Below are positions 45,373 through 47,158 of a DNA stretch of 64,000 bases, piece after piece (the first letter of the stretch is position 1; the number at the start of each line of letters is the position of its first letter). The stretch comes from Paraprevotella clara YIT 11840. GTDB lineage: Bacteria > Bacteroidota > Bacteroidia > Bacteroidales > Bacteroidaceae. The stretch lies in the NCBI RefSeq assembly GCF_000233955.1, contig NZ_JH376597.1, positions 248,001 to 312,000 on the forward strand, in the 5' to 3' direction. The notes beneath the pieces are model-generated. The model saw only the letters and a program-made list of their open reading frames with translations, was not told where the DNA came from and did no database searches. The position numbers and the translations under genes were made by a program.

Positions 45373-45404
45373 TTGCACACACCTGAAAATGGCCTTATCT
45401 TTGC
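45373..45404 (+). promoter_or_regulatory. Consensus promoter of candidate sRNA 1
   Basis: TTTG at 45373-45376, 20 bases, then TATCTTTG at 45397-45404 matches the Bacteroidales housekeeping promoter at both elements. Transcription would start near 45411. Confidence 0.75.
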
Positions 45405-45410
45405 ATCGTT

Positions 45411-45500
45411 ATCCTGAAAACAATCTTTTTACCTTAAACAAAACTAATACCTAAAAAACTAAAGAATACGGGTCGCTGTGAAGCGGCCCGTATTTCTTTT
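45411..45500 (+). ncRNA. Candidate small RNA 1
   Basis: A stretch of about 88 bases without an open frame runs from a full-consensus promoter to a strong terminator (45465-45494, AATACGGGTCGCT against AGCGGCCCGTATT, one GU pair, GTGA loop, then a T-rich run). The terminator may also end the kinase operon. The 5' half contains ACCTTAAA (45431-45438) and CTAATAC (45444-45450), which are complementary to TTTAAGGT and GTATTAG of candidate sRNA 2, and the flanking bases extend this similarity. I cannot assign a known RNA family. Confidence 0.6.
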
Positions 45501-45553: not shown

Positions 45554-46462
45554 TCAGGGGCAACTGACGGGAAAGTAATCGAATGAAAAGCGTGGGACTC
45601 CACCGTAAGACAGTATCGCAGCATTCTTTTCCGGTTGGAGGGTGAATGTGAGAGACTGCGTTTCGCTGCGATTTTCTCCGTCTCCCACCTTTTCGTATGT
45701 GACCGTCTGCGGAATGTGACGGGTGGTCTTCCCCCACAGTCCGGCATACCAAATAAAATCATAAAGCCCCGGAAAACAATTCATCTCTTGGAGGTAGATA
45801 CCGGGATTCAACTTCAGGGAATCCTGCATATCATAACCAAAAGTATAAATCTCATGTCTCTCGTATAGATTGTTCGTATGGGAGACATCGGAAACCACCG
45901 TCTCCAGATTCCCGTCTTTCCAAGTGTACCGCGCCACGCCGGTTTCTCTGCAGCCCGAACTGTTTTCACGATGGTAGTTCATCTCGGTGATATGTCCCTC
46001 GGAGTCGTAAGAAGCCGATACCTCTCCCCGAAAAGGACGGGCTTTTCCGCCGTTTGCCGCTTCTTGCTCCATGCCGTTGAATTCCATATAAACCACATGG
46101 CCTTCCGGAGCGACACGAACAGGCTTGAAACAAACCTCACGGACACGACCGGTGGCTACGGACTTCTTTTCCTTGAAAACCCGAAACGCCAGTGGATGAG
46201 TCTCCACTATAAAAGTACCATATTCCGTACTATAGCCTCCGACCATCCGTCCGTCACGATATTTAAACCGGGTCATATCACTGTCCTCCCGGCTCCATCC
46301 GGCAATCGGGCGTACGATACCCATATCTCGCAAACAGGGAACCGACACAGCGGCTTCCCCTTCTAAGGGATGCGATTTTTTATTACTCCGACAGGCCACA
46401 CAGCCACAGGCCATATACGCAACGAGCCATATTTTCATCAAGCTACGGATCATTCTTATCAT
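45554..46462 (-). CDS. Lipoprotein of unknown function (DUF4595-like)
   Basis: About 302 residues. An N-terminal hydrophobic stretch (MKIWLVAYMACGCVAC) ends in cysteines that could be lipidated, though the lipobox is not classical. The ATG at 46438 is an alternative start. The body alternates beta strands with charged turns (YRDGRMVGGYSTEYGTFIVETHPL, SASYDSEGHITEMNYHRENSSGCRETGVARYTWKDGNLETV), the pattern of DUF4595/YD-like lipoproteins of Bacteroidota. I do not recognise it with certainty. No TAnnTTTG box points at it in the present orientation, but an invertible-type promoter segment begins 42 bases upstream, facing away. It has its own terminator and is unlinked to neighbours. Confidence 0.7.
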   Translation of the reverse strand: MIRMIRSLMKIWLVAYMACGCVACRSNKKSHPLEGEAAVSVPCLRDMGIVRPIAGWSREDSDMTRFKYRDGRMVGGYSTEYGTFIVETHPLAFRVFKEKKSVATGRVREVCFKPVRVAPEGHVVYMEFNGMEQEAANGGKARPFRGEVSASYDSEGHITEMNYHRENSSGCRETGVARYTWKDGNLETVVSDVSHTNNLYERHEIYTFGYDMQDSLKLNPGIYLQEMNCFPGLYDFIWYAGLWGKTTRHIPQTVTYEKVGDGENRSETQSLTFTLQPEKNAAILSYGGVPRFSFDYFPVSCP

Positions 46463-46503
46463 ATTCCTGCGTTACTATTATTTTATCTTCCCAATACGGT
46501 TTA

Positions 46504-46673
46504 TCTCTTGGTAAGAGATAGACCGGCCTTCAAAATATACTATTTTACAGCCATTTAAAAAATACAAAGTTTAGAAAACTATCGCCTTTCTTAGCTTTTT
46601 TTACACGTTTACTTGGCATTATCTGTCTTTTTACCTACATTTGCAAGCGGTAGTCTATCTCTTACCAAGAGAT
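46504..46673. promoter_or_regulatory. Candidate invertible promoter segment
   Basis: 21-bp perfect inverted repeats at 46504-46524 and 46653-46673 (core ATCTCTT...AAGAGAT) enclose 128 bp. Inside, TTG at 46613-46615, 20 bases, then TACATTTG at 46636-46643 is a full-consensus promoter pointing right. Its start (about 46650) falls at the right repeat, which folds into a 12-bp hairpin followed by TTTTTT, so transcription would end at once. Inversion would place the -7 box at 46541-46534 on the minus strand, about 65 bases before the lipoprotein start, where the left repeat lacks a T-run. I read the present state as OFF. Each repeat is itself nearly palindromic, so two copied terminators are an alternative. 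Confidence 0.6.
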
Positions 46674-46682
46674 GGACTTTTT
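46652..46682 (+). terminator. Hairpin terminator immediately after the 46.6-kb promoter
   Basis: AGTCTATCTCTT pairs with AAGAGATGGACT (one TG pair) around an ACC loop, followed by a run of T. It overlaps the right inverted repeat and begins within a few bases of the predicted transcription start. Confidence 0.75.
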
Positions 46683-46782
46683 TTCATCCCCCAATAGACC
46701 TCGGAAAAACGGCTAAAAAACAGCAAACAAGATGCTCCGTTTATAAAAAACGTTAAATACAACCATTTTCATTTCCCTCTTA

Positions 46783-46812: not shown

Positions 46813-46818
46813 CATCGT

Positions 46819-46912
46819 GTTTTTCATAGTATTAGATTTAAGGTTAACAAAGGTTGGGTCAGAGCGCTGACCCTTTTTTTATATCCTTACTGTGAAGTAG
46901 GGATATTTTTTT
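46819..46912 (+). ncRNA. Candidate small RNA 2 with tandem terminators
   Basis: From the promoter, about 37 bases containing GTATTAG-A-TTTAAGGT (46829-46844) lead to a first terminator (GGGTCAG-AGCG-CTGACCC then seven T, 46856-46880). A second follows at once (ATATCCTTAC against GTAGGGATAT, then T-run, 46881-46912). The second hairpin's apex ACTGTGAAGT matches the apex GCTGTGAAGC of the sRNA 1 terminator, with a compensating change in the closing pair. No open frame fits. A paralogous sRNA family of Bacteroides is possible, but I cannot name it. Confidence 0.6.
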
Positions 46913-47127: not shown

Positions 47128-47158
47128 TTGGTATAGATGAAAAAAATCCCTATTTTTG
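47128..47158 (+). promoter_or_regulatory. Promoter of the DUF418 gene
   Basis: TTG at 47128-47130, 20 bases, then TATTTTTG at 47151-47158. It decides the start codon: the ATG at 47137 lies upstream of the transcription start, so 47188 is used. Confidence 0.75.

Follow-up and report, generated by a model that had tools for sequence, protein, structure and literature searches.

Why does a consensus promoter in Paraprevotella clara YIT 11840 lie between two perfect inverted repeats, with its back to a putative lipoprotein gene and running straight into a terminator? The locus was found in a window of 64,000 nucleotides, the whole stretch of DNA analysed here (positions 248001–312000 of contig C21 in the P. 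clara genome, referred to as G000), and an earlier note on this DNA had read it as an ON/OFF switch for the lipoprotein. The best overall explanation, to which we assign a probability of about 0.87, is that positions 46497–46683 form an inverton of a genus-restricted family, moved by a tyrosine recombinase encoded elsewhere in the genome. The relevant features of the window are the following.

45554–46462, minus strand: proposed target, a putative lipoprotein of 302 aa with a DUF4595 domain (PF15283), which scores exactly at the curated cut-off
46503–46523, unstranded: left arm, a 21-bp inverted repeat with the core TCTCTT-GGT-AAGAGA at 46504–46518
46524–46652, unstranded: inter-arm segment of 129 bp, proposed to be invertible, reversal being seen in sibling elements
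46613–46643, plus strand: promoter, TTG (46613–46615)-N20-TACATTTG (46636–46643), facing away from the lipoprotein gene in the sequenced orientation
46652–46683, plus strand: hairpin terminator, formed by the right arm together with a T-run, at which rightward transcription should stop after about 30 nt
46653–46673, unstranded: right arm, a 21-bp inverted repeat with the core TCTCTT-ACC-AAGAGA at 46658–46672

The element lies between genes and its arms are 100% complementary, confirming the perfect 21-bp repeats described before, with the corrections that they begin at 46503 instead of 46504 and are separated by 129 instead of 128 bp. Each arm is itself palindromic around a 3-nt centre, and the centre of the right arm, ACC, is the reverse complement of that of the left arm, GGT; the left core is further embedded in a longer imperfect palindrome at about 46497–46525. 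The consensus promoter claimed between the arms is present on the plus strand, and its predicted transcription start, read from the sequence, is at about 46650, which leaves some 3 bp to the right arm. Rightward firing into a terminator is borne out by folding: the right arm and its T-run form a hairpin of −14.9 kcal/mol (z −4.64), a stability reached by 0 of 200 shuffles. The lipoprotein gene, which matched no NCBIfam family, starts 41 bp from the left-arm core site and, as had been noted, seems to have no promoter of its own: no leftward TAnnTTTG occurs in the segment, and none was seen by eye in the 40 bp before the gene start. Inversion would by simple arithmetic place the promoter about 64 bases from that start, where about 65 had been estimated, and an OFF state of the sequenced orientation fits the sequence.

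To the right, the element is followed by an FopS sRNA (RF04319, 78.9 bits; 46817–46883, plus strand), 144 bp beyond the right arm and with a promoter-like TAACTTTG just 5' of it as judged by eye, and then by a DUF418 gene at 47137. An Rfam family for the element itself was discarded, as the scan of the window matched FopS alone, a neighbour and not the element. What looks like another small RNA lies on the plus strand at about 45385–45500: the stretch has a promoter-like sequence, a leader rich in A and a strong GC hairpin with its T-run. No Rfam family reaches its gathering score there, and the P. xylaniphila sequence is almost the same.

The arms belong to a family of sites with the consensus TCTCTT-NNN-AAGAGA, or nearly so, in which NNN varies between loci. 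The exact pattern TCTCTTNNNAAGAGA occurs 28 times in G000, forming 14 pairs, versus 0 occurrences of a reversed control pattern (which yields one or two matches in 5 of 17 other genomes of the genus); two further pairs with one half-site mismatch bring the genome to 16 elements. Eleven genomes of the genus, picked for holding the exact pattern (the single site of G016 being left out and G011 entering via fetched loci), contributed 132 exact or near-exact sites at the fetched loci. These form 55 pairs at distances of 60–420 bp and make up 52 elements, three of them with a doubled site, while 25 of the 132 sites are partnerless under this distance filter. Among 301 sampled genomes of the host family, GCTCTCTTNNNAAGAGATA is found in seven, all within the 18 of the genus, and its control gave one match, in one other genome. 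A longer form of the site was found in ten stretches among named genomes, five in Paraprevotella and five as lone sites elsewhere, which may be chance matches. Viral contigs held no stretch with the window site and 33 stretches with GCTCTCTTNNNAAGAGATA, one match each. In P. xylaniphila YIT 11841 (G017), the elements at C23:62052, C32:68393 and C87:57753 carry a doubled site on one side, the copies 25–39 bp apart and with the same centre, and so resemble the repeat duplication that has been reported for a B. fragilis promoter, as far as that description is available (PMC3090145).

In all 55 pairs the NNN centres of the two sites are reverse-complementary, with a chance expectation of 1 in 64 for each pair and with orthologs among them that are not independent. 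Matched, inverted centres are what strand exchange within a shared spacer demands. Two elements, C28 in G000 and C78 in G006, have their outer half-sites in direct repeat, yet their centres are inverted. In three ortholog pairs between G000 and P. xylaniphila the centre has changed in both arms together (AAG/AAC, AGT/AAT and GGT/CAC). The notion that private spacers insulate the loci from each other found no support, the 16 elements of G000 sharing eight centre classes (AGG and ACT four times each, ACG and ACC twice each, and four singletons).

Orientation was compared between G000 and P. xylaniphila by alignment scores of the flanks and inner segments of ten orthologous elements. Four of them (C15:3556, C28:9929, C39:1656 and C3:160563) have the inner segment turned round with respect to the two flanks, four others (C15:26565, C16:4292, C23:28252 and the window element) do not, and two, including C23:149813, gave no clear orientation. 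Ten further comparisons involving other genomes added three reversals, all involving C78 of G006, and seven unreversed cases. The flipped arrangement sought in relatives thus exists for four sibling elements, and not for the window element, which has one orientation in the two genomes that hold it.

This sameness would suit a family that inverts while the window copy is locked, a fixed promoter running into its terminator. We regard such a locked copy as improbable. Its arms have stayed perfect in both species, over 21 bp in G000 and 25 bp in P. xylaniphila, the promoter boxes are conserved though they seem to serve nothing on the right, and an unchanged orientation is not unusual in a comparison that left three other elements unchanged and two unclear. 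Far less probable still is a reading without inversion, in which chance has put the promoter between a pair of bidirectional terminators or of dispersed REP-like hairpins. Each arm can indeed form a hairpin, and the right arm with its T-run makes a good terminator, but an outward T-run accompanies just 6 of 104 arms (counted, like the promoter and phasing statistics below, with the outer pair of three triple-site loci left out), terminators need not have the reverse-complementary centres found in all 55 pairs, and the segments of sibling elements are reversed between species. On the same T-run count, the idea that arms generally double as terminators was dropped. P. xylaniphila keeps the TTG and TACATTTG of the window promoter unchanged. 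Returning to the inverton reading, the ON/OFF switch proposed for the lipoprotein gains support from the sibling reversals and from a sibling element, described below, that precedes a paralogue of the gene in the ON orientation.

Promoters are placed in these elements in a regular way. Within segments trimmed by 4 bp, 34 of 52 elements have one outward-facing TAnnTTTG 5–20 bp from a segment end and none has it at both ends, compared with 1.35 expected from mononucleotide shuffles. The elements without an exact TAnnTTTG near an end number 18 of 52, including 5 of the 16 in G000, where the remaining 11 carry the exact outward motif. The distances between arms are also structured: measured start to start, they cluster at 153–155, 164–165, 173–177, 184–190 and 207–211, and the remaining three are 199, 309 and 322. 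Over the range of 145–215, which leaves out the pairs at 309 and 322, the spacing has a period of about 11 bp, both in G000 (n = 16, R = 0.78 at 11.0) and when one element is taken per ortholog set, as grouped by us (n = 21, R = 0.72 at 11.1), with 0 of 5000 uniform sets reaching as high a value in either case; old duplications could inflate this periodicity, although between different loci the inner segments have no more than short stretches of 16–51 bp in common.

Assemblers break contigs where both orientations of a segment coexist, so that contig ends at the sites are an indirect sign of inversion. Across nine draft genomes, i.e., without G000, G017, G011 and G016, 14 of 68 sites have a contig end no more than 100 bp away, versus 0.55 expected with rounded genome sizes. 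Such breaks occur in six of the nine genomes, with 6 of 13 sites in G010 and none in G003 (0/1), G006 (0/9) and G015 (0/5). By their coordinates, none of the 28 sites in G000 or the 26 in P. xylaniphila is within 100 bp of a contig end.

All 16 elements of G000 have a flanking open reading frame, found mechanically, that an outward promoter could drive, at a distance of at most 200 bp in 15 cases and of 546 bp at C28. Matches to Pfam at E 0.001 were obtained for 13 of 19 candidate target proteins, and include glycosyltransferases (PF05686, PF01531), NusG-like proteins (twice), an outer-membrane barrel, OmpA, DUF3575, a leucine-rich-repeat protein, an M6 peptidase with a BACON domain and a hybrid two-component regulator; from their position, we take the NusG-like proteins to be UpxY-like. 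The mirror case of the window element is the one at C31:44574. The gene 35 bp from it encodes a paralogue of the window lipoprotein (29% identity at E 5e-29) that matches no Pfam family, and the promoter of the element, pointing into this gene, is in the ON orientation. A third, more distant relative was found in G010 (32.7% identity, DUF4595 below the cut-off) with a matched site pair upstream, and the promoter of this element, judged by eye, points away from the gene. Relatives of the window lipoprotein behind such switches at three loci suggest a surface role that is worth varying. The view of the window switch as one member of a set, predicted as it is from sequence, is well supported.

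Which enzyme would move these elements? A serine invertase found no candidate, with no PF00239 (Resolvase) match in G000 while 10 of 14 control genomes were positive. Phage_integrase matches number 25 in G000, none of them on C21, the contig of the window, which agrees with the earlier observation that no recombinase lies in the window. XerC/XerD-like genes were also found, and were set aside as candidates since they are probably the housekeeping pair. The genus also harbors a superfamily of recombinases mostly of ~400 aa. Among 33 genes of this superfamily examined, 18 have an inverted repeat, of several motifs, starting 24–106 bp beyond the matched end, and eight of these 18 have a TCTCT-type element or a variant of it 24–63 bp away.

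A candidate for the recombinase gene elsewhere in the genome is G000:C8:2233–3438, which lies beside a MatE gene and encodes a tyrosine recombinase with Arm-DNA-bind_5, Phage_int_SAM_5 and Phage_integrase domains. In 8 of the 8 genomes with a member of its clade (support 98/96), that member and the same MatE gene are divergently oriented neighbours, and no repeat pair was found just past the gene end in the 7 of 7 genomes with enough downstream sequence, the eighth, G004, having just 54 bp. The eight genomes with the MatE-adjacent recombinase hold 28, 26, 13, 11, 9, 8, 8 and 7 exact sites, versus 6, 5, 4, 1 and 1 sites and none in five for the ten genomes of the genus without it (Mann–Whitney p = 0.0002, uncorrected for ancestry or completeness). 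The clade is present in eight genomes versus seven for GCTCTCTTNNNAAGAGATA, G007 having eight core sites but not GCTCTCTTNNNAAGAGATA. Three genomes have the MatE gene with no recombinase found around it, and hold 0, 0 and 1 sites. The two sister genes of the clade (L234 in G003 and L235 in G002) have one in-frame stop each, in genomes with 1 and 0 sites; a co-decay of enzyme and sites is possible, with the two genomes just 78% and 70% complete and the stops potentially sequencing errors. In G011, a recombinase with an in-frame stop is found beside an intact site pair.

Alternatively, the element could be inverted by another recombinase, XerC/XerD or a different member of the ~400-aa superfamily, which would be equally compatible with a switch. 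The foremost example is a shorter G000 gene, C16:187247–188080 (L236), right past which lies a TCTCT-type inverted pair, TCTCTGCGCAAGAGA / TCTCTTGCGCAGAGA, with the variant centre GCGCA / TGCGC and outside the 16 elements counted. With this gene, with the eight superfamily genes that adjoin TCTCT-type elements or variants and with up to six sites in genomes that lack the MatE-adjacent gene, the alternative has some substance. We nevertheless think it rather unlikely, given that the two other full-length G000 relatives examined (on C33 and C19) are closely followed by repeats of other motifs, that the site of the C16 gene is divergent and that the number of sites tracks the MatE-adjacent clade. 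Judging from co-occurrence, we slightly favor G000:C8:2233–3438 as the likely enzyme, a preference tempered by the C16 gene, which adjoins a TCTCT-type pair in the same genome. Other recombinase clades (L157–L186 and L231–L236) have private inverted repeats just beyond the genes, TATAATATGAAGCGGC, TCTCCTAATATGAGATGGATATT and CCTCTACGCAAGAGG being examples of the motifs, which would amount to several parallel inversion systems in one genus.

In the mechanism we propose, the recombinase encoded elsewhere, most likely by G000:C8:2233–3438, would bind the TCTC/GAGA half-sites of both arms, the two sites would be brought together over a short DNA loop, and strands would be exchanged inside the common central spacer TTNNNAA, flipping the 129 bp between the arms. 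As sequenced, the promoter would run right into the hairpin terminator and leave the lipoprotein gene OFF; once inverted, it would face left and the gene would be ON, its transcript having a leader of about 64 nt. A bolder version is offered tentatively, at somewhat less than even odds: one vertically inherited MatE-adjacent recombinase would run a switchboard of ~16 promoters, with common half-sites and locus-specific 3-bp centres copied from arm to arm, and would act only on sites spaced by whole helical turns (~11 bp per turn).

Comparable arrangements are known. In E. coli, the tyrosine recombinase genes fimB/fimE read towards the short invertible promoter fimS. Several other Paraprevotella recombinase genes likewise read towards short elements, whereas the window element has no adjoining recombinase. 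B. fragilis has two master tyrosine invertases, Tsr19 (BF2766) and Tsr0667, that act on local and distant repeat-flanked promoters (PMC4747536). As far as that source is available, the Paraprevotella system would share with them a tyrosine recombinase, and has in common promoters within inverted repeats, the −7 motif TAnnTTTG and candidate targets among surface polysaccharide or outer-membrane genes (PMC4747536). It differs, against descriptions that are partial and give no repeat sequences, in its genus-restricted TCTCTTNNNAAGAGA and locus-specific matched centres, and in a candidate gene that is not closely followed by a repeat pair in any of the 7 genomes with enough sequence. Mpi of B. fragilis, a serine recombinase described in the same partial source as acting on 13 invertible regions, would be similar in that one enzyme serves many surface-gene promoters genome-wide (PMC4747536). 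Unlike in the case of Mpi, no Resolvase-family gene was found in the P. clara genome. Inverton groups and repeat motifs were reportedly described by Jiang et al. 2019. The invertons of the hCom2 study, according to the part of it available, likewise have short inverted repeats around a Bacteroidota promoter, and nearby invertase genes oriented beyond the reach of the inverton promoter (PMC11892184). The Paraprevotella site may be identical with a repeat motif of Jiang et al. or of that study, and a literature search for inverton and Paraprevotella gave no match.

One odd promoter has led to a mapped set of 16 candidate switches in a gut commensal, with a named candidate enzyme. As the crossover centres are matched within elements and variable between them, a search for switches in relatives can do without reads. 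The periodic spacing of 11 bp provides natural data on how DNA loops while recombining in vivo, and if the switchboard reading is true, switch lengths would record the helical repeat and the loop limits of DNA in the living cell. The set adjoins genes for NusG-like proteins, glycosyltransferases, outer-membrane proteins and lipoproteins, and the bacterium can probably turn many of its surface genes on and off at random.
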